Origin: Gryganskiella cystojenkinii
Taxonomy: Eukaryota; Mortierellomycota; Mortierellomycetes; Mortierellales; Mortierellaceae
Length of the DNA: 26,209 bases
Assembly (NCBI GenBank): GCA_015852425.1
Contig: JAAAIG010000562.1
Coordinates: forward strand, 1-26,209
Reading direction: 5' to 3'
Positions 700-26,118 of the stretch are shown in pieces. Positions within the stretch are counted from its first letter, which is position 1. The number at the start of each line of letters is the position of its first letter. Under the pieces are notes generated by a model. That model ran no database searches. It had not been told where the DNA came from and saw nothing but the letters and a program-made list of their open reading frames with translations. The position numbers and the translations under genes were made by a program.

Positions 700-1537
700 C
701 TACTGGGCTTTATCCACTCTTCCTTCTTCTTCCTCTCCCACTTTGACCTTCAAGACCCGGATGGGTTCCATAAAGAACGAACTGGCTATTGCCGACTCGT
801 CTTTTGAAGGCGTCAACGCAGTCGTAAAGAGTAGAAGCTGAAATGGTGATGGTGACGCTGTAGCGGTCTGGTTCTCCTTCTTGTCCCTCAATTGACGCAT
901 AAGCTCCTCTACTTTTTCTCTCGACTCCTCCGAGGACAGGCATGCATCCATCCCATCCAAAACAACAATCTTGAGCGAATCCGTCTTTAACGCATCCCTC
1001 TGAACCAACTCCAGCGTCCTTTCGACAGTTCCCACGATCACTTGGACACCGACCCCGAGTTGCCGTACCGCTGCTTGAAGACTCATCCCCTCCACACAGG
1101 CGAGACAATCGACCTCGACAAATTGAGCCAATCTCGAGATCTCCTCCTGGGTTTGCAAGGCCAGTTCACGATTCGGGACCAAGATCAAGGCTTGGACTTT
1201 TAACTGAGCGTCATCGACGGTTTGAAGGATCGGGATAGAATAGATCGGGACTCTGTTGTTGCCTGCCTGCCCTAATGCCCGTTGTCCTTGTACGATAAAA
1301 TCCTGCCCTTGTAGGACGGAGGCGATCAGTTGTTGTGCGGAGACTGGAAAGTCATTGTACCTATTTTTTTCGTTGGGACAGCGAGATAAGTGAGTAGGGG
1401 GGTTCAGAACAAGTACAGTAACGAAGACAAAAAGACATCAAATGGGACATGCAGAAGTTAAATTAGGAGAGTTATCCCTACACGACATTGACGCCTTTGA
1501 TCAGGCTCGGTTTGAGATTCATTCCCTCCCAGGCGAC
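700..1537 (-). CDS. Gene A: eIF4A-like DEAD-box protein, RecA1 domain only, degenerate motifs
   Basis: Two exons are clear: 1537-1482 and 1360-700, joined across a GTAGGG..AATAG intron (1361-1481). They give 238 residues from the first visible codon to TAG at 700-702. The peptide follows eIF4A from the helix before the Q motif (MNLKPSLIKG) through motif Ia (PNRELA, about 81-86), GG-like, motif Ib (GTVER, 129-133), motif II and motif III, then ends just after the residues equivalent to eIF4A DPIRILVK. The second RecA domain is absent. Key residues are lost: Walker A AQSGTGKT is GQRALGQA (44-51), so the catalytic Lys and Thr are Gln and Ala; DEAD is DGMD (154-157); SAT is TTA. ATP binding and hydrolysis are therefore unlikely. 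The 5' end is unresolved: either an upstream mini-exon (ATG at 1626-1628 directly before a GTATTC donor) or the internal ATG at 1520-1522. The open frame and good splice sites argue against a plain pseudogene. Family certain, function unknown. Confidence 0.75.
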
Positions 1538-1922
1538 CTATTCGAAAAAAAGGTTATATATCTAGTCAGATCTACAGCAGGCAATCTCAACCACAAAGAA
1601 AGAATGAAGAGAAGGATAGGAATACCATATTTCTTGATGAGCAATGGAGAAGGCGGACAATGGCTGAGGAACTTTATGTAGATTGGTTCAATATTTTCCG
1701 GAATAACAAAAATAATGTGTGGGAGTGGAAGAAAAGAGACCAAAAAAAAAAAAAGGAAGAAGAGGGACCCATTATTATTTGCGTCCTTCGGTCTGCGGAC
1801 AGCCTTTTTTTTCTTCGCACGCACTGCCACATCTTTCAAAAATATCCAAGCAACAGAGCTTACTTTGTTTCTCCGTTGTCAAGGGAATTGGTAACAACAA
1901 TCGGTTGTCCACTACCATTTGT
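1538..1922. promoter_or_regulatory. Interval between F-box gene 3' end and gene A 5' end
   Basis: This 385-bp stretch must hold the 3' flank of the minus-strand F-box gene and the promoter and 5' end of gene A. It has T-runs on the minus strand and several possible branch-point and acceptor signals, including CTGAC followed by a pyrimidine run and GAATAG just before 1537. Frames on both strands are open by chance but show no family signal. The first exon of gene A, if there is one, should lie here. Confidence 0.35.
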
Positions 1923-4268
1923 TTATTCATTTTTATCCCTGGGAAGGGGAAGCACCAGGGAATTAAATCTCGGCCAACGGCTCTTCATCCACTCGACTTC
2001 CTCGGCTCCTATTCTACATAACGGTAACGATGAAACATTCAAGCGTCGCAATCGCTTCAGACCGCTCATATGTTCGAGACCCTGAGCCAATGAGCAATCC
2101 AAAGAGACAAGACAGTACTCTTGATTTGCGACGAGTTCTTTGAGCTGCCTGTTTTCGTCCTTGTTGTCGTTGACTACTGACCAAGGATCACGAAATGACA
2201 CATTCCACGTGTCCGAACCCAGAGCGAGATCCTCCAAGGCCACCAGTTGTCCAAGTCTGTGATAGATTCCAGCCATGTATGAACGGACTTGCTCCCGATT
2301 GAAATCACCCAGATCCAGTGAAAAAAAGATCGAGAGCACTCTCAGCGTACGCGTGCATGGCCACACACAGATCCCGCTCATTTGCAGCGAGATTGATGAC
2401 AAGGTTGCTGATATCGATTCCAGCGGCTGCAGCTGCAGATCTTGTTGCTCCTGTTGCTCTTGTCGAAAGAATGATGATTCAGTTGTCATTTCTGGTAATC
2501 TCGTCATGGCAGTTTCGAGATCGGTGTTACTGCTGCTGCTGGTGCTGCTAATGCTGGTACTTTTTCGGTCGTGAGTGTTGTTGCCTGCTGGATCAGTCCC
2601 TCGGGTTTGAAAGTCGATCCAATCCACTTTGGGTGCGATCGATTGCCATAAAGTGGGGTCCGGCATACCGGGTTCGATCAAGAGCAACGTTCCCAGGCTG
2701 GGGCATCTCTTCAACCAGGTCAAGATATCGGAACTTGTCAGTTTTGACCCGCAACCCACAACCGAGATCCGCTCCAGGGTTGAGAAGTGCACAGATAAGG
2801 CCGCGTGAAGGACATGGCCAAACACAATATTTTTAAAGATCAAAGACCGTAGACCATTTCTTATTCTCGGGCTAGTGCCGCTTCCGTCGTCCCAATTCTG
2901 CTCCGAGAGAGCTCTTGTCGCAGTGGTTGTGGTGCTTGTAATGGTGGTGGTACCGGTTAACGATGCAAAGCTTGAATCTAGCTGCTGTGGTTTAGGTGAA
3001 ACGGTATCAATGATCTTGGCGAGATGTTGCTCCCGTCCCCGTACATAACCGGTGAAATCCAAATGTTCGAGGCGTTTCCCGACCCCACCCTCCTTCAAGA
3101 CCTCAATCAGATTGTCAACATCGTCGTCGTAGAAATATGGAAGCCGAAATGACGTTAGGTTTGGGCAAAGACGCAAGATCGCGCACACGATCAAGGCAGG
3201 GTAACGCTTGGTCACTAGTGAGAGACGCAATCGCTCGAGTCGAAGTTTAGGCGCCACCATAGTCTCCATCACAGACTGGATCGATTTCCCTCGGATTCTC
3301 TCAAGAAGGTGTCCGACCTCGCCACGATCATCGTTATCAGGTTCATCTGACAAGAACCCATCCACCAAAAGTTGCTTCCTCAAATCCTCTTGATACTTGG
3401 CCCAGAGTTGTTCCGATTGCTTCATCGATCCGTCGTGATCCCTCCGCCTGGGTGTGATGGCCGTCAGGGTCAGGTCTTGAACTCCACTCGGCATGTGTAT
3501 GAAGACGTTCAAGAGATCCTCCGTCGATACAGGCCCGATCCGAAGGACCTCCAGCCTTGAAACTGTGCATAAGAGTTGAGTGAGTTGAGCCGAGAAGGCC
3601 GTGGGGTTGTCAATTGTAGTGGCGAGATCCTCAAGACAAAGTTTTCGTAAAGTCGAGCGGTTTCGTCCAGCTAAAGATAGAACCAAAGTCCTTGGAATGA
3701 TACATAGGTTATCCTGACCATTGCGCCGAACTCGAACCTTCTCCACCAATTTATGTTTTACATAAAGGAACCGGAAATTGTAGTCGTCCTCGTATTCGTC
3801 CCAGTGCATCCAATGCGAAACCCTTGAATGAGGATAAATCCCTGCGAGCTTGATGGTATCGAGTCGATGAGGTAAGTAGTCGCACCTGACTGTTGTTGTA
3901 GATTCTGTCGTTGCTTCTTCTTGCAAAGGTAGCAACAACAGTTCACCAAGTCGGTCGCGGTAATGACCAAACTGGACCTCGCGGGCGAGACGCGCACCGT
4001 ACTGGCGCAAGGCTGCTTCGGCTTCTTTGGTGGGTTGCTGAGGAAAGAGAGTTTTGTCGTTACTGTTCTTGTCGATATCGCCAAAGAAGTCGGTTGCAAG
4101 AACTCGCCATCTGCAAGGAAGGAATGCGGCATGAAAGTCTCGACAGACCAACAGACAATTGAACACGTCGTCAGGTTCCAAATGCTGACTGATGATTGCA
4201 ATCAGGTGAGGTATCAGAGAGAGACGAATTGCCGGCAGGCCCCAATGTAGTGGAGACGTCAAAGACAT
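1923..4268 (-). CDS. F-box/leucine-rich-repeat protein (781 aa)
   Basis: This is a single-exon frame on the minus strand. I choose the ATG at 4266-4268 because the F-box begins about ten residues later; the same frame is open 39 codons further upstream but that part is Phe/Ser-rich and leader-like. Residues about 10-58 form the F-box, with LPxxxLSLIPHLIAII, the DVFNCLLVCRDFH core and a CRWRVL tail. The rest holds irregular leucine-rich repeats (for example LRKLCLEDL, LEVLRIG, VQDLTL, LRLERLRLSL, LEHLDFTG, TLERISVVG, LEDLALGS, LRRLNVSSLP) with Thr/Ser-rich and Gln-rich linkers. By family, the F-box would bind Skp1 of an SCF ubiquitin ligase and the repeats would select substrate. The C-terminus (EVEWMKSRWPRF) resembles that of the divergent neighbour at 4603-8256 (ELEWMVEQWPDL), so the two are paralogues. 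Substrate unknown. Confidence 0.85.
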   Translation of the reverse strand: MSLTSPLHWGLPAIRLSLIPHLIAIISQHLEPDDVFNCLLVCRDFHAAFLPCRWRVLATDFFGDIDKNSNDKTLFPQQPTKEAEAALRQYGARLAREVQFGHYRDRLGELLLLPLQEEATTESTTTVRCDYLPHRLDTIKLAGIYPHSRVSHWMHWDEYEDDYNFRFLYVKHKLVEKVRVRRNGQDNLCIIPRTLVLSLAGRNRSTLRKLCLEDLATTIDNPTAFSAQLTQLLCTVSRLEVLRIGPVSTEDLLNVFIHMPSGVQDLTLTAITPRRRDHDGSMKQSEQLWAKYQEDLRKQLLVDGFLSDEPDNDDRGEVGHLLERIRGKSIQSVMETMVAPKLRLERLRLSLVTKRYPALIVCAILRLCPNLTSFRLPYFYDDDVDNLIEVLKEGGVGKRLEHLDFTGYVRGREQHLAKIIDTVSPKPQQLDSSFASLTGTTTITSTTTTATRALSEQNWDDGSGTSPRIRNGLRSLIFKNIVFGHVLHAALSVHFSTLERISVVGCGSKLTSSDILTWLKRCPSLGTLLLIEPGMPDPTLWQSIAPKVDWIDFQTRGTDPAGNNTHDRKSTSISSTSSSSNTDLETAMTRLPEMTTESSFFRQEQQEQQDLQLQPLESISATLSSISLQMSGICVWPCTRTLRVLSIFFSLDLGDFNREQVRSYMAGIYHRLGQLVALEDLALGSDTWNVSFRDPWSVVNDNKDENRQLKELVANQEYCLVSLDCSLAQGLEHMSGLKRLRRLNVSSLPLCRIGAEEVEWMKSRWPRFNSLVLPLPRDKNE

Positions 4269-4602
4269 TGCGGGATGCGTCCGAGATTGTTTGGCTGCAA
4301 AAGAAAAATACAAATGGGAGGAAGCAAAGGAAGAGAAGAACGGAAGTTGGCCATGGCGCGCCAACGACTTCGGTGCATCAGCCACCAGGAATGGAAAAAA
4401 AGGCGCCGCTCTCCTCTACTTTGTTCTCTTGGACTCTGACTCCACCTCGTCTTGGGCTAGAGCACCCTCTCACCTCATCCACAGTAAGTACAAAGCCCGC
4501 GCCACGGTCATTGCTCACTCATTCATTCACCTTGAATGTTGTTGCTTCCTCGCAGGCGCTAACATTTACATTCATAACGCGTCGAGGTAGAAACATAAGC
4601 TT
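4269..4602. promoter_or_regulatory. Shared upstream region of two divergent F-box genes
   Basis: The 334 bp between the two start codons must carry both promoters if the chosen starts are right. It has no TATA box that I can defend. Open frames cross it in several phases but they are shadows or upstream extensions without family signal. The close head-to-head arrangement allows co-regulation; this is inference. Confidence 0.4.
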
Positions 4603-7600
4603 ATGGAGGTTGAATCCCAGCAACCAGCGTCTTCACTCGCAGTCAAGGTCCTACTGGTCCCCGAGCTTTTTGACCTCATCCAGGCCTACCTGACCTTAAA
4701 CTCGGATCTCGTCTCTTTAACGCAAGTCTCCAAGGCCTTCTTCAACCTCTTTGGTCCCATCTTCTGGCACACTGTCGAGATCAAAACAGAACAACAGCAC
4801 GATCGGTTCGTCAACACACCCGAGGTCCGAAACGCTCTTCAAAAACATGGGCCAGGTTGGATCCGAGTCATTCGCATCCGGACCCCAAAGAGTTTGACCC
4901 CGTTCTTGCATCAACCCGATGGCCAGAACATTCTTTTGACACAGCTTCACACGCTCGAGTTTCCCTAGCCAAGACGCCTTTTCTTTGAGGACTTGATTCC
5001 AAAAGGTGTTGACTTTCAGCCATTCCTGGACGATGGATCGAACCTGCTTGGCGACCCTTATGCAGAATCCTTTTATCTCGAACAGGAGCATTTCCACAGA
5101 GCCCGTGGCGGACAGGCTTGGCTCGACTCGAGAATGACGACCACGACCTCCTCAGCCTCTACGTTTTGGTTACATCAACGCCGAATCGGTATCTTGAGAC
5201 TTGCACAGGATAGCCTCCAGCTCTCTGTCGAGGCAAAAAAACTTGAGACACGATTACGTGAAGTCTACATGGATCTCGGCCTAGTCCGCAAGGCGCATGA
5301 GGTCATGACCGATTGTCAAGAAATCATCCGCAAGTTGGCCTTGGAGGAAGAGCACGAAGTTGACAATCAAACCTTTGAACCCCACAATGAGATAACGACA
5401 ACCCCTCAGGACGAAAGAACAATGTACTCAACAGAGGCAACAGCGACAACGTCCACATCCAACGGCAAGCTGGTCGATGTCTTCTTTTATTTGTTCACAA
5501 TCCGTGAAGAACTCAAGTCCGAGATCCATTCCAGGAGTGCGACCACTTCGATTAGGCAAGCGGCTGTGAATATGAAACCCTTACCAGAGGAATCTCGGTT
5601 GGTGGATCTTATGAACGAGTATGTCACCAAGATCGGGATCTTTGAAACCCAGGTCTTGTCTTTGGATCATAATACTTTTTTTGCGTGTTCTTCGTCGTCA
5701 AGCCTATCCGGGAGAACGGCCATATTCGTGCGGACTGCACACGAGGAAGCGTCAAGTCGACTCGCCCGATACCCGATCGAAGAGGTCTCCCATCTCCACC
5801 AACATGGGAAACTCTCCATTCATAAAAAGACGCCAGGACTCGAACCAGCCCCATCAAACCTACACTTTGACCATTCAGCCCTGAATATCAATCCTCTCAC
5901 CCGTGAGCAAATAAATCGCAAACGACAAGAGCGACAACAACACCTTTTTAATTACCGACAGGCGCTGCAAACCCAACAGCTGAAACAAAGAGAGGATCAA
6001 CATGCACGACACAAGTTACGGACAGAACAATGGGAATATGAACAGGATCAGCAACGGCATCAACTCTTGTTACAACAGTTCCTGTACCAATATTCGCATC
6101 ATCATCAACAGGTCCTCGCTCGTCAGAATATCTCGATTGAGGAGCATATCGAACGATTTCGACGGGAACAAGAAGAACGGAGTCACAGGGCACGGCTGCG
6201 GGAGATGGATTCCTGGGACAGTAACGGTCACAGCGTCATCCGACCGCCATACTTGGCCGTGTCTGCCCTGGTCCTTGATAGCATGAGAGCGTTCTTGGAG
6301 GAGCAATTCACAAGTCTATCTATGTTCCAGATCACCAACACTTCTCAGTCAACAACAATAACAAGAGCAACGTCGACACCGGACCCCTTTAGTGGCGCTC
6401 TTCCAGCATGGCCTGCAGAAAAGGATCTATGGGATTACGTGGACACCCCCACAGATGTCGATGCAGTCCTCGTCCCGTTCCTGGAGCAGTGTTGCCCAAA
6501 CCTCCAATCCCTTGGTTCAATCTATTTTCCGTTTCAGTCATGGCGTTTACTCTGCGGTCTTTCGAGAATTGGTAATGGAAACTCCTTGAGGACCCTGTCA
6601 ATGATCAGTCCGGAACTGAACTGTATTGTCGACAGTGCTGCGCTCTTTGCTGTCCTTCGGGATCTGTCCCCACGACTCGAGACCTTAAGATTCGGAGCTC
6701 AGGTGGGTCTGGCAGTAGCGGCAGCGGCAGCATCGGCGGTAGAGCAGGAGGAGGCCAGACCAGGACAAGAGGAGGATGCAGAAGCCAGAGTGGACGCACT
6801 CATTGCGACTTGTCTAGAGCGATGGTCGACACCTCTTCGCGGTCTGAGGACTCTCATTCTTGAGGGTTCGGTTGAAGGACTCAACTCGGCCTTGTGGACA
6901 AGGTTTATGGAGAGATGCCCCAACCTCCGATCACTGAACTTGATGGTCTCGTTTCCGGACCCGATTCTGCACCGACTCACCTCGGCCTTGACCCAACAAA
7001 ATCCAAATATGACTTTGTTTCTGCCTCGACTTCAGGAAATCTCTCTGTCCGGTGGCAGAGAAGCTCAGGACAAGGAATTATCTGAGTTCTTGGAGGCTTG
7101 CAGTGGCGTCTGTGGTGGTGTCATTGACGCCAACAGGTCGCGCATTGGCGTGTCGCGAATTCGTTTGACAAACATTGGAAACTTTGGTCAACATTCCCTC
7201 AAGGTCTTTCAACGATGTTACAACAAGACTCTCACGCATCTGACCCTCCATGGTTGTTTTGGCCCACTGGCCCTGCATCACGAGAAACCGTCTTCACCTT
7301 TAACCGCCGACGACTCGGTGTCGACAGAGAGTACAGACCACGGGCATCCGATCGTCTGGGTCCTGGCCGAGTTTGAACGCCTGCAAGTCGTGGATCTCTT
7401 ACCAGTTCAAAGGGTCAATCTCTTGCCCTCGACAGCGCTCCATGGCACGGTCTGGGACGCCGAGCACTTGATCCGGAGTCACGACTTGCGCACTAGTCCT
7501 GCTGTGTCCGAGACAGGTCGGAGAGGGCCTGCTGTGTTATCATTCGTACCCTGGGAATGTTTCTCGGCACTTCGGGTCCTGAAATTGATCCTTGGCGGTG

Positions 7601-8256
7601 ATGTCTTGGTGCGGACAACAACACAGAGACCAACAGTACCAGGAGCAGCAGACGAAGAACTTGCAACCTTGCTCAATATTTTCCGTACTTTTCAACAAAA
7701 CCATCGAAAGCTTTACAGAGTCCTGGGGTCCTTGGTCGTTCTGGAGGAGCTGCACCTGGGAACGGCCACCATGCCTATGACGGCAACGTACACGGGTGAG
7801 GTGCAAGTAACAACAGGGACTGCGACAGCTACGTCGTTGGCATCAACATCGATACCAACACCAATAATGTCCTTGACATCGCTCTCGTCCACCTTGTCGT
7901 CGTCATATTTGCCTATACCTGTCGCTACCACCGCTAAGGAGACCAAGGGACCTTGGTTGAGGCAAGCGACCATTCGTCATTTTTTGACCGATCATGAGAA
8001 ACGAATCGAGATTGATCAGCAAAAGAATTGTCTATTGATGACGCTCGAGAGTGGTCTGGGAGAAATGGCTGAGCTCAAGGCTTTAAAAATCTTGAATCTT
8101 AGTGGTATGGACCACCGCATCGGTCTCCCAGAGCTGGAGTGGATGGTTGAACAGTGGCCCGATTTACGAGAGATACCGGGTCTGAAGAGACCTGGGTGGG
8201 AATCTCACTTGAGCGAGTGGATCAAATCTCGTGCATCCTTTTGGAGATATTCCTAG
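4603..8256 (+). CDS. Large F-box/LRR protein, interrupted by an in-frame TAG
   Basis: One frame runs from ATG 4603 to TAG 8254-8256 (1217 codons) but is broken by a TAG at 4966-4968, codon 122. Codons on both sides are in the same phase and the stop-free flanks read smoothly across it (HTLEFP, stop, PRRLFFEDLIPKG). Residues about 15-60 are the F-box (VPELFDLIQAYL, LVSLTQVSKAFFNLF, FWHTVEI). Coding from about 5200 to 6210 holds helical segments and a long Gln/Arg/Glu/His-rich coiled coil (5904-6207). Leucine-rich repeats fill about 6450-8200, and the C-terminus matches that of the divergent F-box neighbour. The expected role is an SCF substrate receptor. The TAG could be a nonsense mutation, a sequencing error, or be removed by a poor in-frame intron (for example GTCATT at 4867 to TTTCAG at 5019, 153 bp). 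If the TAG is real, only the 121-residue F-box piece, or a headless LRR protein starting downstream, would be made. Confidence 0.75.
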
Positions 8257-8589
8257 AAACGCGAAAGATGGACACCTTTTATTTTTTTTTTATTTCGACT
8301 GTCACCAGCACGATAAAAAAGCCTTGCCATATGAAATAGAAAAAATAAAAAGAGGAAGGTAAAAGAAAACTAGTGTGTCAATTCTCTGATTTTAAGTCCG
8401 TAGTACTGTTGAGTCTCGTTCAGCTGGAACAGGGTGTCCTCCGTGATGAAGTTATATCACTCCGTTCTTTTTTGCCTACTTTCGACGAGCCGAGAGAGTT
8501 TCCTCTGGCACAGCCGGCATAGTTCATCATCTTTCGGATACGTATCCTTTCAAAGGTCAGCATCGTGAAGTTGATGACCAGCCAACCTA
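8257..8589. other. 3' flank of the large F-box gene
   Basis: Starts with an A/T-rich stretch just after the stop, including T-runs and AATAAAAA-like sequence around 8340-8350 that may serve as a poly(A) signal. The remainder shows faint F-box-gene character but no frame that can be followed. Confidence 0.35.
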
Positions 8590-9103
8590 GGAATGATGCC
8601 AGGTCCTCGGTCGCGAACAGTGTCCGACATTTGGATGTGCTCGAATGATTCTTACTCTCTATTGTCCTCTATTCAGAGAGAGCCTGGCACCGGTGAGAGC
8701 CAATCCTGGAGTCTCCAACAGTAAGAGCCGCTTCTTCGATTCCTGACAAGATCTCTCTCGCTCTCGACCACGTCGCAGAGCCAGGCTTGTCGGAACGCTA
8801 CATCCAGGAGCACGTGGTATTGATCGACAGACTCCCAGGGTCCTTCTTATCTCTGAGAATGAACGCTCGTCTTCGAGAGCTTTTGCATCTGACGATTCTT
8901 CATATCGGGGGTAGAGATAGGAACTCTTGGTCCTAAACGAGTTGGATCATCAGCTCGAGAATCTTTACATTGACGATCTGGCTCGAGAGGTCAATCTGAC
9001 GGATGTCCGTTTGTTGGTCGATCATACGACAAATTTAACGCGGTTGTGGTACCGACAGTTGAATCGACACTTGAGAGCCCTGGAGGTCACTCTGGCATGC
9101 GAG
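8590..9103 (+). pseudogene. Decayed F-box/LRR gene fragment
   Basis: Several broken frames on the plus strand resemble the neighbouring F-box/LRR genes. Around 8592-8646 a frame reads SVRHLDVLE and then meets TGA. From about 8749 a second frame reads EPGLSERYIQ..FLSLRMNARLRELLHLTILHIGG and stops with TAA at about 8935. Reading shifts by one phase into a third frame (8927 on) with LENLYIDDL, VNLTDVRLLVDH, LTRLWYR and LRALEVTLACE. The leucine spacing is LRR-like. At least one stop and one or two frameshifts are needed to connect the pieces. A GTAGGT at 9104 and CAG at 9299-9301 bound a possible 198-bp intron whose length is a multiple of three. It is probably a relic of a tandem F-box duplicate. 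No F-box motif itself is visible, so the assignment is moderate. Confidence 0.45.
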
Positions 9104-9420
9104 GTAGGTTTTCTACTTTTCGGGTTTTTTCCTTCTCCGCTTTTCATTAGTCTCTTCACTTATTTCCCCATATATTTTAAGTTTCTGTACAGTACATATT
9201 TAAGTCAAAGACATCCGCTGGAGATGGACACTCCCATTCTTTTTTTTTCACATCAGTCATTCTCCCTCCTCCTCATTCTTTTTCTCTTTTGTCCCTCACA
9301 GGCAAGCAGTTTAGCTGATGCTCCATGTCACGTGAACACCAAAATCGAATGCTGCGTGACTGCTTCTCGATGGTTGAATAGGAACATCGGCAAATTCACA
9401 TTTGCCAAGCCGAAGAGTTA

Positions 9421-9608
9421 GGATGGTCCAGTGGTCTAGGGCGCTGAACCGGAGCTGCTGAAGGTGATGACCGTTGGTTCGAATCCCGCGATACGCAAAC
9501 GTTTGTCAACGCTGGGTTGGTTGGAAGGTAATCCTGAGCGCGACATAGGTAAGCTATGTACGCGCTAACCTTCGTTAGGTCAAAAAAGTAAATTGTCTTT
9601 TTTTTCTT
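9421..9608 (+). mobile_element. tRNA-derived SINE-like element
   Basis: A pol III A-box-like sequence TGGTCCAGTGG (9424-9434) and a consensus B box GGTTCGAATCC (9476-9486) are spaced as in a tRNA. The acceptor and anticodon stems do not pair (no complement of GGATGGT follows the T arm), so this is not a working tRNA. The body beyond the tRNA-like head holds a strong hairpin (9524-9573): GAAGGT with ACCTTC, GCGCG with CGCGC, ACATAG with CTATGT, around a GTAAG loop. An A-run (about 9582-9587) and a run of eight or more T at about 9597-9605 follow, the latter usable as a pol III terminator. Head plus unrelated body plus simple tail is SINE architecture. Other genomic copies would be needed to confirm mobility. 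Confidence 0.5.
9524..9573 (+). repeat. Stem-loop in the SINE-like body
   Basis: The arms GAAGGT (9524-9529), GCGCG (9538-9542) and ACATAG (9543-9548) pair with CTATGT (9554-9559), CGCGC (9561-9565) and ACCTTC (9568-9573). There is one bulged A and a small internal loop. A conserved 3' hairpin is sometimes the part of a SINE that a partner LINE reverse transcriptase recognises; that role is inference here. Confidence 0.6.
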
Positions 9609-10457
9609 TCATTCCTTCCACCCTCTTCTCCCATCGCTCATTGTTCACTGCCTCGCGCAACTCTGCTTTTCTCACTTGGTCTTTTACTCTCGCTGGAGGA
9701 TCCAGCCTGGCAGCACCACTGCCGTCAAAAAGCAGCACTGGTGGTCAAAACTCGCGTTGCCACTTAAGGGTATGCGACGTTAAAGCTCGCGAACTTTGTT
9801 TCGCTCTCAAAGCGACCTTCGGTCCTTTAACATGACACAAGATCCTTTCGAAGCAGGAGCACTGCCCAACTTACTTTGTAATCCAGCTCGTCTCTCTCAC
9901 TTTTTTGCTCGGTTTCGCCATCTTGACGAGAGCTTTGCCATTCAATTGCAATCGGTAGCTCAAATAAAATGGCAGTTTCTGCATCAATGTCACCATCACT
10001 GTAGCCATCTCGCAAGTGAAGGGCAGGCGGGGTTATTATTTTTCTGGGGGGTGGTTTTGCCGTGGGAGAATGAACGGTATGAAAAAAGAACTTGATTGCA
10101 TCACAAAGGACAATCCCCTTTTCTTATTTCCTCTCCGCGCCTTTTACTGCCGTCTCCAACTTTGAGGAAAATTTGGGGCTGACCAGAGTCATTAGAAAGA
10201 CGCATTCTTAATCCCAACCAGGGCTTATTTTTTGTCGTGTCAACCTCAAGAACGCGTAATGAAGGCAATTTTAAGGGAACTTAGTTGACCCAGACAGAAA
10301 CACGCGCGGGTCCCCTCTCGGCAAGATTCAGTAGGGAGCGAAAATTCAGTAAAATGTGTGTGTGTGATGGGGCACGAACCTTTACTTTCTTCAAAGGTCT
10401 AAAACAACAAGGAGGAGGGGTGGGACAAAGAGAGTGGCGGGGGGCGAACATCAATAT
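9609..10457. other. Gene-poor interval downstream of gene B
   Basis: Open frames here (for example around 9593-9835 and 9796-10095) show no recognisable motif and no splice-linked partner. The right end must contain the 3' flank of gene B. No RecA1-type motif is present. I see nothing else I can name. Confidence 0.35.
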
Positions 10458-11125
10458 TTACATCTCATGGACAAGGATAGCGTCCGATGGGATCTTGCGA
10501 ATCGTGGTCGAATAAAACTCCTCGATCTCCTGTAACAGCTCCAGGTCTTCCTCGGTCGCAATGTTGATTGCCGCTGGACCCTTCTTTTTATCGCCACCAC
10601 GACTGCCCACATGATGGACATAGCTCTCTTTTCTCGGAACTGTGAAATTGATTACCAGATCCACTCGATGCACCTCGACCCATTTCGCCATCGGTTCTGT
10701 GGCGACCAAGATCCGAATCTCGCTCTCCATGAAATCGTCCAGGGTCGACTCTCGTTCGTTCTCATCCAACCCAACGAAGAGCGCGGCGGCTGAAAAATGA
10801 GTCGCTCGAGATGAAAGGAAACCGAGCAAATCTTCGACTTGTTGCGTGGATGCACAAAAGATAACGGCCTTCTCGAACGATCGACCCTCGTGAATGCTCA
10901 GGACTATCTCTGGTTTCTCGGTATCGTCTTGGACGGGGACGTAGCAGTGCTGAATTCCTTCAAGGGTTAACTCGCCTTTCTTGACTTGGTTTCGTACCGT
11001 CTTTTTGATCATGAAAAATGGTCAGATTGTGATGACCATAAGGAAGATGCCGTGGGTGGGCCAGAATAAAATCAGGTTCTTGTTACCTCGTAGACGCTTT
11101 CAGCGTCTTGAATTGTGGCGGCCAT
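10458..11125 (-). CDS. Gene B: eIF4A-like DEAD-box protein, RecA2 domain only, degenerate motifs
   Basis: The two exons are 11125-11087 (MAATIQDAESVYE) and 11000-10458, joined across an 86-bp intron (GTAACA..AAAAAG, 11001-11086). They encode 193 residues. From residue 14 the protein follows eIF4A starting at the interdomain linker (VKKGELTLEG, residues 19-28), through motif IV (AVIFCASTQQV, 58-68), the ERESTLDDF helix, motif V, motif VI and the closing EEFYSTTIRKIP helix. The first RecA domain is absent, and the upstream 480 bp show no trace of it. Motif V ARGID is AKWVE (118-122). Motif VI HRIGRGGR aligns with HHVGSRGG (142-149), so the arginine fingers are lost. The ATG is well placed and the splice sites are good, so this looks like a designed small protein rather than a truncated pseudogene. 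It begins where gene A ends. Binding an eIF4A partner such as eIF4G is conceivable but unproven. Confidence 0.75.
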
Positions 11126-11608
11126 CGATGGTGCTTTTGACCTTGAGTAATAGAGAGAGATGGAGGGGGAGAGAGAGATGTGAAGAAGAAGAGAAACCTG
11201 CAAATTGGGGAATCATGATTTTTAGAGCGGGGCGGAGACTCCTTTTTCGCAATTTGGGAGGTGGGGGAGCACTAAGGCTGCATGAATGTTCTATACGCTG
11301 AGCCAGAAATAGAAAACAAACAGCACATGCCCGAAGAGATCGTATCTTCCAGAACAAGGCTACCTTTTGTCGATCTGCTTTATTTTTTTTCAAAAACGGT
11401 CGTAAGGGTCTAAGTCCAAGTGCACTTGCAAGTTTTGAGGTTTCCGCAGGGAAGTCGCAAAGGTTGCGGCTCGACAGTGGGAATACACGCCTCGCGCATG
11501 CTCGAATACAATTATGTGTTAGCTCTATTTTTATCCAGTGGCATTTGTTGTGCGAGTGTCCTTGCAGAGCACGTGCTGTAGTTGCTTGATTCATTTCCCT
11601 ACAAATCC
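11126..11608. other. Upstream region of gene B
   Basis: This should contain the gene B promoter. The minus strand is open across 11100-11594 but the peptide is Arg/Leu/Ser-rich without motif. I looked for Walker A, PTRELA, GTPGR and DEAD equivalents on the minus strand and saw none. Confidence 0.35.
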
Positions 11609-11835
11609 CTAGCTTCTTTTGGATTTCATCATAGCTAACGTGTAGCTCGGAAGCTCCTTAACTTTGCCAGTGTGCTTGCCAGGTGTCCCTGGGATGTAGA
11701 CAATCCGAAAGTCCTCCAATGCCCGAGTAATATCCACCTGTTGGCCGTCCCTGAATGATATGGCCTTCCTCGTGACAACGGTCTTTCTCGTGATCAGGTC
11801 GATGTCAGCCTTGCGTTGGCCCCCAAAACTGATAT
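11609..11835 (-). pseudogene. Unidentified coding remnant (minus strand)
   Basis: From about 11835 to the TAG at 11609-11611 the minus strand reads about 75 codons with protein-like composition. It starts near DISFGGQRKADIDLITRK, continues through AISFRDGQQVDITRALEDF and IVYIPGTPGK, and ends LAMMKSKRS before the stop. It has no ATG; the frame is open upstream only to a TAG near 11925, and that part overlaps the LINE-like remnant on the other strand. It could be the last exon of a truncated gene or part of a transposon. I do not recognise the family. Confidence 0.35.
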
Positions 11836-11878
11836 CCAGACATTTTTTTTCCGATTTGATTCACGCCAGGAGCGCTCG

Positions 11879-12112
11879 ATGGACCAAAGATTGAATATAT
11901 TGACTTTTTCCTCAGCGGCTGGGGCTACGCCATCAGACGAGAAACTAGCCAAACTCGAAGCGGAGCGCGAGACTGTGGAAAGGGAACTGGCACTACGAAC
12001 TCAGACACGCTGGAGAGAACTAGGGGAACGATGCAATGGCTATTTCTTCCGGTTGTTAAGAGCAAGGGTTATAAAACGTTCAATCGCCGAAATCCAAGAA
12101 GGACCGAGATCG
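11879..12112 (+). mobile_element. Non-LTR retrotransposon (LINE) ORF2 fragment
   Basis: Within a plus-strand frame, residues encoded at about 11933-12109 read EKLAKLEAERETVERELALR followed by TRWRELGERCNGYFFRLLRAR. This is the pattern found between the endonuclease and reverse-transcriptase domains of LINE ORF2 proteins: a charged helix, then RWxExGERxxxYFFxLxxxR. No endonuclease or YxDD motif is visible, and the frame decays after about 12120 with stops. It is a short, inactive relic lying between helicase-like genes B and C. Confidence 0.5.
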
Positions 12113-12425
12113 CGTCGGGGACACCCAAGGTCAAAGTCAAGTAAAGCCTTATTTTTATTTGACATGCAGCACACGAATCCTCTTCGCTACCAACAAACCA
12201 CTTGCGGACAGCTGTCTCTATTCTTTGATTACTCCTTTTCTGATACGGGTTAATCTACGCTCCTTCTGGATCGTATCGATTTAGTCCTCTTCCAAAACAG
12301 GGTCAGAATTCCCTATCCTAATTTGCTCTCTTGAGGCTTTCAGACTAAATGGACATGTCCAGCTGGAGAAACTGACGACAATTTGCCTTATTATAATTAC
12401 AAATTTAAACGTGCCCTGGTCATTA

Positions 12426-15400
12426 TTAGTTGACAATGAACTCGGCGATGCTCGGCTATTGAATAAGGGCACGGTTAAAAAAGAGACTGTTAGCAAAGCC
12501 TTGGCGGCATGTGTATTAAAGTCCCTCTCTCCCTCTCAATGCGAAGGGAGTGCTGGCGACTTACAGGTATTTCATCGATAATAGCGCGGTAGTGTTGTTG
12601 AATCGCTTTCAGGGCCTGAACTTCTCCACGTTGTCCATCGACCAGGGTCACCTTGACACCTACACGGCCTCCTGAGCGATCGATCCACTTCACTCTATTT
12701 TTTTTGTTCAAAGAACATCAAAAGGGACGGGGTTGGTTACCGGTCGTCCTTGTCAGTCCATCTATTCGTCCTTTTCGATTAAACAGAGTACGTCTCCTTA
12801 CCGAGGTATATAATATGAAATACTGGGGACTTCAAAGCTGATGACGAGTGGCACATGGACTATCTCAAGGTCCTTGGCAGCTTCATCTGAAAGTACAAAG
12901 AAAGCCGAGGGATTCGCAGATTTGAACCAAGCCAGAGCTGATTTCTTTCCTGCCATGTCCATCTCCGTGTACTAAAATATCGTCAAAAAAAAAAAAAAAA
13001 AAGCCAGGGAAACGTTCAATACTAAGGACGTTAGAACATGAGGACAATCAAAACAATAGAGACCATACTAGAAGCCATTACAACGCTTACCACTCCAATA
13101 GCGGTTCCTTTGCGTTCCCGGATCCTCCGGACGACTCGTTCCACAGATTCATCATTATTACAGAAGACGACCGTCCTGTGCGCGCCACTCTCTTCCAACA
13201 TATCGCAGAGTGTGTCCAGTCTCCAGTCCTCATCATCCACGGTAAGGTACTTGAAGAATTGTAAGATCCCCTTCAAAGCTTGATCATGTCCCTTCACCAA
13301 GGCTTTGGTCGGTTGGATCGAGTACTGGTTCACATATTCCAATACATAGGACGGTACCAAGGTCGAGAACAACAAGAGTTGAGGTGGTGGAGCCGAGTTT
13401 GCTGAGGATGAAGTTGCGGGTCCTGAGAGTGGCGGTAGCGTGGCAATCGACATGGATCTTGGTCGACCATTGAAATTGCCGATTGAACCATCCGATCCTG
13501 GGAATCGACCGATATTTGTTCCGTTGCTATTTGCCATGGCTCGTCCATTCAAGGCCGCGACTGCCATGGACACTGGTGAGGTGGGTCCTGAGTTTGGTGG
13601 TGATGACAAAGTCGGCACCGACGTCGAGCTCGCAGATCCGGTCGTCGTAATCAAGGTTGAGGCTGCGGTTGGGCTCATCAATGTTGTGTCCCTGATCATC
13701 GACAACAAGCTAACCGTTGCTTCCTTCAACGGTGACACCAGTAAGATATCTGCGTTCTCCAACACCATGACCTTGAGCGCCGACAGAGAGAGTTGTTTGG
13801 TTCGGACCAGATTCAAGACTTTGCCAGGAGTACCGATAACGACATGCGCAGCGATATATGGCAAAGGCTCCTGCATCATTGATCCTGACTTACTGGTGCC
13901 TCCGAATCCCTGTCCGCGACTTCCGTGTGGTCCATGACCCGCCACGTTGACTTGAGTTGTCGAGATAGTTCCCAGGGACAAGGTTGCGTTACTGCCCTCG
14001 GCGCAGACCAGACAAGAGATCGTTGGCATGAACCGAGCAAGGGCCAACAGAACGCGCTGGACATGTTGACAGAGATCGTGGTTGGAACAGAGGATGATCA
14101 GTTGTGGATGGATCGAAGTTGCAGGCAATGTCAAGAAATGGAGTAATGGGATCGCATACGTCAATGTCTTGGCCACCTCGGGCTTTGCCTGGATCAAAAC
14201 ATCCTGTCGGGTCATGATCATTGGGATTCCACGCTGTTGCAACATCGAAGGCATTTCAAGGCTAGGTTCGTATAGGGTAAAGGGGGATCGAAGAAGAGGA
14301 TCAATGCCGTAAGTATTGCTGAGATAGGTCCTTCTGATATGGATCCTTGTTCTGTCTTTTGTCTTTTGCCTTGCTGCGAAGTAGAGTAACCTCTTACCCA
14401 TACGCATAGATGCCTCGCAAGAGTTCAGGTTTCAGTCCAAGCTTGCTGAAACAGTCTGCGGATTCGATCTTTTCTCCATGAGACGACGACATGGGTGATG
14501 GAGGTTTGTTGACCGTCACGGTCGATTTTAGAGTGTCCCGACCGACCGTAGGATGGAGGATGGTTCCCTGGGAAGCGGATCGCAATGCCTATTGAGAAGA
14601 AGACACAGAGAGAAAGATCAAAGTAGAGTTAGCTTTCAATAAAGATCAGCCAAAATCAAGCTAAAAGTCAACAGATATCACTGCTCCCCTTTATCCAACA
14701 TAAAAAGGAAAAGTCCTCATTCTGTACTCACGCTGTATCTATCCTTTATGCTGCTGCTCATCTGGTTGTCTGAAGAACTTCTCGGATCCGATGATTGTGG
14801 TCGTCCCCGTACCGTCTATTTCGAGATACAAGGTAACATAAAATAAAGAGGATGTTAGCCACCCTCTGTTTCGCTAATGATAGCTTCCCAGTCTTCAAAG
14901 AATACGAAAAAAATAAATCCAACTTACGTTTGCAGCTGAACCATTCCTACTGGACGGTTCGCCTGATACGATAATATTGCCGGCTACAGAGCTAGGTCTT
15001 GTATTGGTGTTATTATGGTCCATATTCGGGGTCGTTTGAGATCGAAAATAAGGTGGCGGTGCTGCCGAACTTGATGAGGGTGGCGAGGAGGCCGAGGCGA
15101 GAGTGCTGATGTTGTTACTACTGGCACTGGTACCGAACCCACCCAGAATCGATCCTTGACTTGAAGAGGTCGACAAGACAGGTGTGGCCGAAGGTTTCGA
15201 GATTGCGAGCGAGTACTTTGGGATGTGAGCCGTTTGGACCGAAATCGTGTGTGGGACACGCTCCGCCTCGACAATACGAAGTGTCGACGAAGCCGAGGCC
15301 GTGGATGGCACGGAAGCAATGTTGAGGGCTTGGATGGTCGTGTATGTTGAGTTTGTGTCCATATTTGGTGTGCCAGCGTCGTGTTTGTCAGGAGTACTCG

Positions 15401-15947
15401 AGAACGAGTCACTATGACGTTGTCCTCCCTGGAACGAGTTGGATCCTTCCGAGGAAGCCGAGTCCTCTTCGATGACCTGTTCCTGAAGATTAGAAGTCGG
15501 CCATGCACTCCCCACTGCCGGCTGACTATGCTGAGGCTGGGGTTGTTGCTGCTGCTGCTGTTGGTGACCTTGAGAGTTCTTGCTCTCGGCCTCGTTACCA
15601 CTTCCTGCTAAGCTGGTCCGCTTTTGACTCAGGATCCTGGCCAAGGCCTTGGTCTCATCCTTGACGGTCGAGGGTTTTCTCTGCAAGAGAGATCGGACAC
15701 TATCCTGCCTTCGGGTAGAAGAGGATGCACCTGTGACGCTATTATTCTTTTCCTTGTCGTTCACGTTTGACCAAGGGTCGACATCAAGGTAATCGAGCTC
15801 GGCCTCAAGATCGCCCTGTTCTTCGAGTTCGACAAGAACTGCGATGCCTTCACTCAGGACTTTAACCTCAGCTGTGATCTGTTTCAACAGGCTCTGGACA
15901 TGGTTCAGCGATACAGACAACTCGGCCACGGTGGTCGTACGGGACAT
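12426..15947 (-). CDS. Gene C: coiled-coil/low-complexity protein fused to a degenerate eIF4A-like helicase core (931 aa)
   Basis: Seven exons with matching phases: 15947-14928, 14815-14732, 14588-14398, 14261-13091, 12971-12802, 12694-12565 and 12455-12426, with introns GTAAGT, GTGAGT, GTAAGA, GTAAGC, GTAAGG and GTAAGT to AG. Residues 1-50 are a heptad-like helix; 51-410 are Ser/Thr/Gln-rich and disordered, with a Q run. The eIF4A-like core follows: LKPELLRGIYAYG (to 432), PSMLQQRGIP, RecA1, the eIF4A signature WRLDTLCDML (about 777-786), RecA2, and an end PSIAEFIVN matching the eIF4A tail. Motif I AQSGTGKT is AKPEVAKT (457-464; Lys and Thr kept, Gly lost). PTRELA is about CSNHDLC (490-496). 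GTPGK (575-579) is intact. DEAD is ENAD (600-603), SAT is FST (730-732), ARGID is AKDLE (854-858), and HRIGR is PRVKW. Inserts of about 40 and 100 residues interrupt RecA1. A full-length open gene with lost catalysis suggests a pseudo-helicase; targets unknown. Confidence 0.8.
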
Positions 15948-17013: not shown

Positions 17014-19438
17014 TTATGGTCGAGACATTGGGCGCATTTGAGAGAAAGCCGGAGGGCGGGACATAGGTGTTCGCTTTTGAAAAGAATCTGGTGGCCGTTT
17101 TGATCCACGAGGAATACCGACAAGACCACCAGGGGTAAAATCATCCTCGGATATCCGAATATCTTGACTGGAATGTCGACCTCCTTGCCACCTATCCTGC
17201 TGTTGTTGTTGATGGTGGAGGTGGTGGTGCGACTGCTGATGCTGATATTGATGATGGAGCTCAAACAGAGTAGCATTCTGCTCACGACCATATGGCTCGT
17301 CAGAGGAAGCAAATCGACCAACATGATAGTCGTAGTCTTGTTCGTCTGCCTCTCCTCGTCCTCCTCTTCCTCCTTCTATTTCTTCATCAAACTCTCCAGT
17401 ATCTACTTCCTCCTCACCAAAGTCAAAGTCTTCGTCTCCGCCGAGTTCGCCCGTGGAGACATCCGAGATCGAGTTTGAGGTCGCGGATCCGGTCATATCC
17501 ATTCCCTGACTCCAACTGTTACTGGCTCCGTGATGAACATGACCGGACGAAAGGTTCTTGTGGTGAAGAGACAGTATCTCTCTTCGACCTCCGGGCGGGC
17601 CGTGACCGTAAGGATGCACAAATTGACTCCTGGTCTGAGAATGACCAAGCGCACCAGTGTTGATCGACGCGGCTCGTCGATGCCGAGGATTATTATGCTG
17701 ATGAGCCCCGGCACTTCCAGACTTGGAGAGCGATGAATATGTGCCCGGTAGCTCGTTCTGTCTTTGAAACTGTAAAGATGACTGTGAACGTTGGGGTGAC
17801 GGCGCGATCGGGGGCATTTGACCCGTTTGATTTTGATGTTGAGATAAGTGATCACTGAGGAAAATGGGTGGGGGTGAGAATGCACTCGAGCCACCGTCAG
17901 GAGGCGACATGGTCGTCACAGTCGCAGCACTACTGCTATTACTGGTACTATTGTCGTTCTGGGGTCTCGGTAGATTTTCGGACCAGAGTCGTCCTTGGTG
18001 AAGCCGGCGATGGTGGTCAATCGACATGGACTCTGGTCTCGTCAAATGATATGCTCCGAAAGAGGGCTTGGGTTTGTGATGAACAGATCCTAGAGTTGAG
18101 TCTGGTCCAATTCGAGTCGAGCTAAAGGCCTCAGCGACGGTGGTAAAGTTAAAAGCGATCGGTGTTTTCGCATCCGAGAACGTATATGGCCCACCTGATG
18201 TTGCCGATGTATTCGACAGGGTGTCGAATTGCGTGGATGCAGAGGACATGGATGAAGATGATGAGGACATGCTGACACCACCAGTGATGTGACTCTGCAG
18301 TGGAAGAGGGAGAGGGGGATTGACCATCGAATGGGAAGATGACGAAGACGAAGACATGAACATTGGTCCGATTGTTGCTGATGCTGCCTCCATTCCTGAA
18401 GAGGACGCGTAACTCCCCTCGAGATCAAGACCCGAGAGACTAGAGATCGAGAGTGGTCTTTGGAGACTGTGTCGGCGACTTGAGCATAGTGGGCAATGTT
18501 TCACGAACCGGGCGATAAGTTCTTTGGGCACCCAAGAATAATGCAGTCGGACCTGGATTCAGTAGGAATCGAGTCGGTTAAAAAACAAAGCTGAAAAAAA
18601 CAACCCGGTCGAGATAATCGCGCGTCGTTAGCATAAAGCTTGATCAGATTTTTACCTCTGCAGACGTTTTATCTCTTCCACCATGCGAGCTCTTCCGATG
18701 ACAATACACTAGGACATCATACAGACACTCTTTGGTTGCGACCGGTTTCCCACCATGACAAACAACATGATGATGTGTCGGCGTGGTCGAGAGTGTAAAC
18801 ATCTTCTTGGCCCAGAACCGAAATTGAGCAGTCGAGACCTGTGTGTTTTTGGGTTGCAGTAAGACCATGAGGATCTTTTGGTACATTGTATTCGTCAACA
18901 GCGCCTTTTCTCGTTTCTTGGGTGAAAGCGAACGCAAATAATCCTCGGCCAATATCATAAACTCTTCTTCCGAGATGAAATTGGTCGAATGCAGGATCTC
19001 ATGGGAACTCTGCGGTCGAGGAGGACGATCAAGGTTTTGAATGGATGGCTGTTGTTGCTGTTGTTGACTATGTTGGCGTTGATGTTGATGTGGGTAGTCT
19101 TGACGAGAGGAGTGAAGCGCAAGTTGATGTTGCGCTGGTCGATGTGAAGGATGATAGTGTCGGTCAGAGCTGTATCCTGGTTCAAAGGATAGAGAAGAGG
19201 TCGTCGTCTCATTCTCAAAATCAGAGTCGTCGTTATAGTCAATAACCTCTTGATGGTCCATGTCCGACGATAAAGACGGTTGATAGGCATGTCGTGAAGG
19301 GAAGTGGTCATGTTGATGTAGTGGTAGTTGGCGCTCTTGATCTGAATGGTAAGAGTGATGGCGATGATGCTGTGGTTGCTGCTGCTGTTGTGAGAGCGAG
19401 GAACTGTGGCTGTGATGCAGGTGGTGCTGCAATTGTTT

Positions 19439-19480
<42 letters not shown>

Positions 19481-19984
19481 TTGTTGTTGTTGTTGTCGTT
19501 GATTTTGGAAAGAGGGGCCGGGGTACTGAGGAGGTCGTGGACGATGATGGAGATGTTGTTGTTGCGTGCGCACAGAATAAGAAGAGGACGACGGTTGAGA
19601 AGTGTGACCGTATCGCTCCTCGTCGTCATCGACCTCAAAGTCGTCCCCTTGATCCTTCCCTTCCCAGTCGGAATCGAACCTTGACGTAAATGGAGGGAGC
19701 GGCGGTGGAGAAGAGCCTGAACCGCTTTTGTCGTACGAAGTCGGGGAGTAGAGAAAGGAACCACTGGCAGGTCGTGAACTCGATGAAGTACCCGAGTATG
19801 AGGATGATGACTGGCGATGATGGTGGTATTGTCGCTGTGGAGACCGATGTGCGTTTTGTTGGTCACGATCCTGTTCAGATTCGTGTTTAAAAGTGGTCCG
19901 CTGGTCGTCTTGAAGTCCAGATTCCAGGCTGTTATTGTTGTTGCTGTTAGTCGACGTCGAAGTTGCAGGACGAATCGTGTTCAT
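17014..19984 (-). CDS. Gln/Ser/His-rich protein with integrase-type H2C2 zinc-binding domain (955 aa)
   Basis: Two exons, 19984-18656 and 18552-17014, are joined across a 103-bp intron (GTAAAA..TCCAG). The conserved core spans about residues 337-470. It begins EEEFMILAEDYLRSLSPKKR, then a FWAKKMF block, CLYDVLVYCH, and HRKSSHGGRDKTSAE (to 443), continuing in exon 2 as VRLHYSWVPKELIARFVKHCPLC. H429, H434, C463 and C466 form an H-x4-H-x28-C-x2-C site, the HHCC zinc-binding fold of retroviral and Gypsy integrases, with no DDE catalytic domain. The intron sits inside the zinc site. Flanks are low complexity: Q-rich with a 19-Gln run (164-182), Ser/His-rich, and an acidic stretch (about 790-835). 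Zinc-binding regulator or scaffold is likely; nuclear action is inferred. The frame is open 94 codons upstream to 20266; I prefer ATG 19984 because the upstream part looks like leader. Confidence 0.8.
19439..19495 (-). repeat. CAG/CAA trinucleotide repeat encoding 19 glutamines
   Basis: Nineteen consecutive CAG or CAA codons on the minus strand, with nine uninterrupted CAG in the middle flanked by CAA blocks. It lies in the N-terminal half of the H2C2 protein. The pure CAG stretch is likely to vary in length among strains. Confidence 0.9.
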
Positions 19985-26000: not shown

Positions 26001-26118
26001 TGAGATGATGACCCCGACCTCGAAGGTGCGTCGCCCCCAAGTCAAGGAGTACTTCCAAGACAAGATCCAGGCCATGTATGCAGACATCCGCAGTACAATG
26101 CCCAGTGCCAAGTTGTAA
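23100..26118 (+). CDS. Long-chain-fatty-acid--CoA ligase (acyl-CoA synthetase), probably peroxisomal
   Basis: Eight exons: 23100-23178, 23319-23411, 23647-23988, 24083-24354, 24441-24532, 24724-25194, 25287-25560 and 25660-26118. All introns are GT..AG with consistent phase, giving 693 residues, the usual length for the family. The enzyme activates long-chain fatty acids with ATP and CoA for oxidation or lipid synthesis. Evidence in order: TLYDLFETS then DFLGTRPFD; the AMP-binding P-loop YTSGTTGQP/KG (about 254-264), split by intron 4; YLPLAHIMGR; the GYGSTE adenylate motif; GEIQIRGATIFKGYYKDEKN; GWLATGDIG; DRKKNIFK followed in exon 8 by LAQGEYIAPEKIEN, the fatty-acyl gate region and hinge. 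The C-terminus is SAKL, whose AKL is an accepted PTS1 variant, so peroxisomal import and a beta-oxidation role are likely. No other targeting signal is obvious. It stands alone, without linked fatty-acid genes. Confidence 0.93.

Follow-up and report, generated by a model that had tools for sequence, protein, structure and literature searches.

The window analysed here is the whole of contig C620 of Gryganskiella cystojenkinii (Mortierellaceae, Mortierellomycota; species names are quoted as the sources write them), 26,209 bases out of a genome of 35.0 Mb. It carries three genes, A, B and C, which descend from the DEAD-box helicase eIF4A (DDX2) and whose helicase motifs are altered; gene C belongs to a conserved protein family in which the alterations are fixed. 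An earlier note, made from the letters of this DNA alone, had described the three as a local family of eIF4A derivatives on the minus strand, with intact frames and splice sites and with catalytic residues replaced. Splicing by hand on the minus strand led to the same gene ends exactly and to open, spliceable models for all three genes (Table 1).

The model of gene C is identical across its full length to the deposited G. cystojenkinii protein P0001, and all six of its introns begin with GTAAG or GTGAG and end with TAG. Gene B agrees letter for letter with another deposited protein of the species, P0073, and sits 1300 bp downstream of gene C. Gene A is the weakest model: its intron has GT..AG ends but the donor reads GTAGGG, and the start is uncertain because exon 1 has no ATG ahead of GMNLKPS, from whose ATG 233 residues are counted. 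The earlier description needs correction in that A consists of the RecA1 domain alone and B of the RecA2 domain alone. No remnant of the missing halves was found by tblastn adjoining either gene.

Table 1. Positions of the eIF4A-derived genes and of other features in the window
Feature	Position	Strand	Description
Gene A	700..1537	minus	Exons 1537-1482 and 1360-700; RecA1 only; 233-238 amino acids, start uncertain
Gene B	10458..11125	minus	Two exons, 193 amino acids: exon 1 MAATIQDAESVYE (11125-11087) and RecA2-only exon (11000-10458)
Gene C	12426..15947	minus	931-amino-acid pseudo-eIF4A; seven exons (15947-14928, 14815-14732, 14588-14398, 14261-13091, 12971-12802, 12694-12565, 12455-12426); splice model as in P0001
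Gene C, exon 1	14928..15947	minus	Most of the N-terminal extension: predicted helix 7-54, block ~80-109, low-complexity stretches
Gene C, intron	14262..14397	minus	Follows IYAYG; phase 2
Gene C, exon 4	13091..14261	minus	RecA1 with dead AKPEVAKT, CSNHDLC, TPGK and ENAD; serine/proline-rich insert with conserved SPPNSGPTSPVSMAVAALNGR (conservation profile); start of RecA2
Gene C, exons 5-7	12426..12971	minus	Remaining RecA2, motifs V and VI dead
Pirin-like protein (presumed)	1-142	minus	Start of the protein, leaving the contig end
Open frame between A and B	1923-4415	minus	Long; looks like F-box/leucine-rich repeat (label partly assumed); Pfam F-box below cut-off
Open frames between A and B	4591-8256	plus	Long; look like F-box/leucine-rich repeat (label partly assumed); no Pfam family in the two open frames
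tRNA-like stretch	~9426-9515	plus	D-arm and T-arm consensus letters by eye; unreported by ARAGORN and by Rfam at gathering score
Q/H-rich open frame	18644-20311	minus	No Pfam family; conserved-looking end LYDVLVYCHRKSSHGGRDKT
AMP-binding enzyme	23385-26118	plus	First exon PF00501 (1.5e-14), later exons by eye; presumably a long-chain acyl-CoA synthetase

Descent from eIF4A

Descent of the three genes from eIF4A was borne out by Pfam, by sequence matches in the structure database and by matches within the genome itself. The DEAD family was found in gene A (E 1.1e-21) and gene C (5.7e-13) and Helicase_C in gene B (1.5e-13); in gene C the Helicase_C match fell just short of the threshold (23.4 against a cut-off of 23.5 bits). 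A scan of P0001 returned DEAD and Helicase_C and nothing else. The closest relatives of P0001 by sequence among solved structures were human eIF4A3 (1.1e-54) and eIF4A1 (3.2e-48), and a profile built from 26 C proteins aligned to that of a DEAD-box set over 367 columns at E 8.7e-39, with both domains supported. Within the genome, A and B were closest to two intact eIF4A genes, on contigs C800 and C60 (47% and 34% identity for A, 39% and 37% for B, within the matched stretch), and the same two genes were the best match for most parts of C. With eIF4A or eIF4A3 as the best DEAD-box match, membership of the eIF4A family by descent was supported.

At 11 positions that distinguish eIF4A from eIF4A3, the majority residue of the C proteins is that of eIF4A at three, that of eIF4A3 at none and neither at eight. 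The intron that follows IYAYG in gene C shares its codon and its phase 2 with the genome's two intact eIF4A genes and not, by eye, with eIF4A3. Diagnostic positions and intron phase together suggest that gene C is of the eIF4A type rather than the eIF4A3 type. They also bear on a different account, in which C would be a nuclear, eIF4A3-like dead subunit working beside a MIF4G protein of the spliceosome or the nucleolus (CWC22, NOM1 or UPF2 type). This account can point to the overall identity of P0001, which is 36% to human eIF4A3 and 31% to eIF4A1, to the deposited name eIF4A-III, and to six MIF4G matches on four contigs of the genome, three of which loci we take to be NOM1, UPF2 and CWC22. 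Since the intron phase matches eIF4A and the diagnostic residues do not place C with eIF4A3 in the exon junction complex, we regard it as rather unlikely. The overall identity does count against an eIF4A-type origin, however, as does the first part of the C RecA1 domain, which is closer to a DECD-type gene on contig C405, presumably SUB2-like (5.5e-11), than to the eIF4A gene on C60 (2.8e-9).

The gene C family and its altered motifs

A protein search with the C core, in which scoring covered the 7992 candidates sharing most words, returned 71 proteins, 44 of them (P0001 included) of the C type. Among the remaining 43 C-type proteins, 42 are named as Mortierellaceae and one, P0012, carries no name. 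The next match, a Tulasnella protein named eIF4A, scored 156 bits, against at least 477 for the C type. The names span 12 genera, Gryganskiella among them, where 18 named genera are listed in the Mortierellaceae, and several species contribute more than one record. This breadth ruled out the single local family of A, B and C. B had one metagenomic relative and A only the distant P0072. The eIF4A origin, the loss of catalytic residues in each gene and the intact frames given in the earlier interpretation stood.

Gene C has AKPEVAKT for AQSGTGKT, CSNHDLC for APTRELA, ENAD for DEAD and YIPRVKWIDR for YIHRIGRGGR. The replacements are shared by the family: motif II reads LENAD in 44/44 C-type proteins, motif I reads Q[AT]KPE[VI][AT]KT in all 43 that cover it, and motif Ia reads CSN[HNY][DE]LC in 42/42 covered. 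A check proposed beforehand, whether the altered residues are themselves conserved, was thereby answered for C in the affirmative. Walker A and DEAD are altered in every covered C protein, and A and B carry other changes; none of the three genes has the set of motifs of an active DEAD-box helicase (Walker A GxGKT, DEAD, SAT, HRIGRxxR). Strings reading DEAD or LSAT in P0010, P0023, P0039 and P0040 fall outside the motifs, and those of P0002-P0006 lie in a fused neighbour.

For residue counts in human numbering, 39 of the 44 C cores were aligned to human eIF4A1; the set omits P0020 and P0024, which the trimming pattern did not catch, and the partial P0042-P0044 (63-73% query coverage). Numbers were counted along the printed chain, and its letters agree with the residues named in PMC7470955. 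In these cores G79 is replaced by E, G81 by A or T, D182 by E and E183 by N (39/39 each), and R362 by W in the 36/36 that cover it. DQAD, R362K and R365K mutants of eIF4A1 have been reported to lack helicase activity (PMC7470955). On the other side, the Walker A Lys82 and Thr83 and R359 are retained in 39/39 cores and R365 in 36/36 covered, which tells against a wholly inert protein, as do the motif V Asp and the motif Ib TP (39/39 each). Residual binding of ATP or RNA by C is therefore possible. A step further, that C retains a weak or altered ATP- or RNA-dependent activity, seems quite improbable from the sequences, given that the P-loop has lost its two glycines and DEAD its first Asp and its Glu, and that R362 is replaced, in every core that covers these positions.

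The conservation profile, like the alignment used for structure modelling, was drawn from 26 of the 44 C proteins. The dead Walker A and Ia motifs fall within residues 421-520, a stretch in which 20-residue blocks had a mean conservation of the majority residue of 0.94-0.97; in C, motif columns and the other columns of the core were about equally conserved (0.896 and 0.874). Canonical invariant residues were retained in C equally inside (29/67) and outside the motifs (53/125; p=1). This result runs counter to a change directed at the active site: it led us to reject selective motif loss and indicated that the loss in C was general rather than aimed at catalysis. C thus combines lost catalytic residues with a conserved protein, as a pseudoenzyme does, and is very unlikely to be a pseudogene. 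That the same altered active site is found across many genera of this soil-dwelling fungal family suggests that C probably has a job for which enzyme activity is not needed.

Trees of RecA1 and RecA2 were built separately, with 13 of the 44 C proteins. In both, the C proteins grouped as a single clade with support of 100/100; the stems in the two trees were 1.95 and 1.49 changes per site long, end branches measured 0-0.26 and no inner branch exceeded 0.34. Such a shape, long at the stem and short at the tips, is compatible with an ancient pseudohelicase held under constraint, and the history of C would read as a burst of change followed by a near standstill. A caution on this point is that the tree program flagged the long C stem as joining the bacterial outgroup in the RecA1 tree. 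Five of the 44 C-type gene models are predicted to read through into a downstream eIF4A-like copy, which occupies the place held here by gene B.

Genes A and B

In gene B, TEPMAKWVE stands in place of TDLLARGID, and HRIGRGGR has become HHVGSRGG. Its metagenomic relative P0074 (133 amino acids) is 75% identical over 70% of B. Both depart from canonical eIF4A at 40 positions, and at 30 of these the new residue is the same, so that this dead type exists in at least two sources. Compared with the intact eIF4A gene on C800, mismatches at codon positions 1, 2 and 3 occurred at 0.49, 0.32 and 0.56 for B and at 0.45, 0.34 and 0.60 for A. Only 2/500 and 1/500 neutral simulations (substitutions only) carried to the divergence of B and of A, respectively, remained without a stop. 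The third-position excess and the rarity of stop-free simulations point to constraint on the proteins of A and B for much of their history. Weighing against a firm claim of constraint, synonymous divergence from the C800 gene was saturated in both comparisons (nonsynonymous rate dN 0.57 and synonymous rate dS 1.6 for B; 0.56 and 2.0 for A). Gene B is unlikely to be a pseudogene; it probably yields a product of its own, from an eIF4A copy of which exon 1 and RecA2 are left.

The genome holds a further derivative consisting of the C-terminal domain only, c800b (L045:3163-3889 on C800), in which MAATTQHEDDK is joined to LTLDGINQF... The intact eIF4A copy follows 2.7 kb downstream in the same orientation, and the two are 55% identical; in c800b the altered motif V reads GDLLATSIH and the altered motif VI DRIGLQQR. 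B and c800b share just 2 of 27 changes, so their origins are probably separate; the tree program warned of long branches meeting where B joined c800b, a further reason for reserve about the placement of B.

In gene A, motif Ia is nearly intact (PNRELA), motif II reads DGMD, and TVER stands for TPGR; GNNRV for GTGKT depends on the alignment, owing to a short insert. The protein search with A returned P0072 as its sole match, an eIF4A-like fragment 39% identical over 54% of A, and no protein from this contig. A model of exon 2, confident only at about residues 41-160 and built on an alignment of mostly bacterial-type helicases, matched RecA1 of eIF4A and other DEAD-box structures with template modelling (TM) scores of 0.59-0.69 among the 50 matches listed. 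With a distant match only, A could be a young gene or one in slow decay; it may be a RecA1-only derivative that is now a minor gene or decaying. A wider proposal, that both A and B are functionless today, as pseudogenes or as stages in the decay of an eIF4A gene that once neighboured C, we hold to be a genuine though less likely prospect. Stop-free frames are rare under substitution-only neutral drift and third positions are in excess, both of which speak against it, and for B so do the changed residues common to the metagenomic relative.

Judged by their sequences, A and B seem to have been derived from eIF4A separately, not as members of the C family. The trees do not settle their placement, and to that extent weaken this view: by the approximately unbiased (AU) test, a clade of A with C (p 0.317) and one of B with C (p 0.288) are both acceptable, as is A with an eIF4A-like neighbour from Haplosporangium (p 0.264). 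A and that neighbour share 5 of 18 changes, no better than A and C (11 of 39). It is only the different identity of the replaced residues that argues for separate loss in A, B and C.

A and B as a single gene broken by an insertion was considered and discarded: their order is reversed, part of the linker is present in both, and no trace of the missing half was found alongside either gene. A related scheme would make them halves of one ancestral pseudo-eIF4A, duplicated and then reduced in complementary fashion, whose products still pair. The domains are indeed complementary and lie on one contig and one strand, B retaining the first exon, and A the second exon with RecA1 and the ancestral phase-2 intron. 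Yet about ten linker residues occur, by eye, in both genes, which stand in reversed order 9 kb apart; neither trees nor shared residues tie them to one parent, and c800b is another gene with a C-terminal domain only. We consider the scheme highly improbable.

Candidate docking surfaces and possible roles of gene C

Exon 1 of gene C encodes a conserved helix (residues 7-54) and a second conserved block (~80-109). AlphaFold2 predicted the helix with a local distance difference test score (pLDDT) of 80-86 over residues 11-40. A limit on any structural argument is that the model is confident only in this helix and in part of RecA2 (~771-870), with a mean pLDDT of 43; searched with Foldseek, this partly confident model ranked eIF4A C-terminal domains at the top.

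Five eIF4A1 residues, R45, D265, E268, D296 and T298, contact eIF4G, and the human D296K and E268R changes reduced eIF4G binding, D296K in human cells (PMC7470955). In the C cores R45 (39/39), D265 as E or D (38/39) and E268 (39/39) are kept, three contacts out of five, close to the background retention of 42-43% of conserved residues. T298 varies, and D296 is replaced in 39/39, by K (27), N (7), Q (3) or R (2), which, considering the effect of D296K in the human protein, argues against plain binding of eIF4G. B keeps one of four contacts (E268), c800b one of four (D265), and A has K at R45. These counts bear on the suggestion that C is a dominant-negative eIF4A competing directly for eIF4G and lowering cap-dependent translation. 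Retention of three contact positions, one of them as E/D, would agree with this, as would the dominant-negative behaviour reported for the helicase-dead eIF4A1 mutant PRRVAA (PMC7470955). The universal loss of D296 and the background level of retention make direct competition unlikely, and the account does not extend to B or c800b.

Partial retention near background, together with the loss of D296, suggests instead that C may engage an altered partner, or another one altogether, through part of an eIF4G-type surface. We also considered a partner with acidic residues facing K296; this was dropped, and eIF4G itself was not identified among the MIF4G matches read. The eIF4G-binding domain of eIF4A contacts eIF3i at the mRNA entry site (PMC10948362), and eIF3 is a second candidate type of partner. 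Additional partners may bind at the conserved N-terminal helix and at the SPPNSGPTSPVSMAVAALNGR insert.

From the observed homology, fixed dead motifs and conservation we infer, with moderate confidence, that gene C is an old Mortierellaceae pseudohelicase that lacks activity and serves as a non-catalytic scaffold with the eIF4A fold, B and A being separate, reduced derivatives. An eIF4A copy would have been duplicated before the split of the sampled Mortierellaceae genera to give the ancestor of gene C. That ancestor would have gained two inserts and its extended N-terminal region, parted with the motifs that bind and hydrolyse ATP and grip RNA in the standard way, and become fixed as a protein-binding scaffold. 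C would most likely act by presenting docking surfaces like those of eIF4A, LLRGIYAYG in RecA1 and LCE-LLE in RecA2, to a protein of HEAT/MIF4G or eIF3 type engaged in translating mRNA or in assembling messenger ribonucleoprotein, and the N-terminal helix and the serine/proline-rich insert would recruit other factors. B would be an eIF4A copy cut down to exon 1 and RecA2 and placed downstream of C like the neighbours in the five fused models, and A a RecA1-only derivative constrained through much of its history. A more far-reaching version, which we think unlikely, has C as a stoichiometric part of the translation apparatus across the family within a running pseudo-eIF4A system that tunes initiation. 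Newly arisen eIF4A copies near C would then time and again end up as single domains or as dead proteins (A, B and the Haplosporangium neighbour), with c800b arising elsewhere in the genome.

C resembles eIF4A in its two RecA domains, signature segments, intron position and phase, and best matches; it differs in its fixed altered ATPase motifs, long N-terminal extension and two inserts, while A and B have single domains. Utp25/Def of the small-subunit processome (PMC9539457) likewise has a DEAD-box fold, vestigial motifs and a disordered N-terminal region, but is a ribosome assembly factor that yeast and human have in common; compared by description, C is nearer to eIF4A, and its relatives, save the nameless one, are all named Mortierellaceae. 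Bgcn of flies (PMC5832417), a duplicated RNA helicase without ATP-binding motifs that works in translational control, is of the DEAH/RHA family (YTHDC2 line) rather than eIF4A and has a known partner, Bam. PriA of Deinococcus radiodurans, a helicase relative termed a pseudohelicase, functions in bacterial DNA replication restart and belongs to an unrelated helicase family (PMC4504706, PMC9539457). In 2022 Utp25 was called only the second proposed pseudohelicase (PMC9539457).

No description of the C family was found in literature searches, whose reach excluded most subscription papers. C-type records of the Mortierellaceae carry the names of active enzymes (eIF4A-I, eIF4A-III, eIF4A), which are misleading as helicase annotation. 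Some Mortierella species are transformable. Few pseudohelicases have been validated, and C, as a strictly conserved dead eIF4A, would be a natural separation-of-function protein that could reveal which roles of eIF4A need no ATP.

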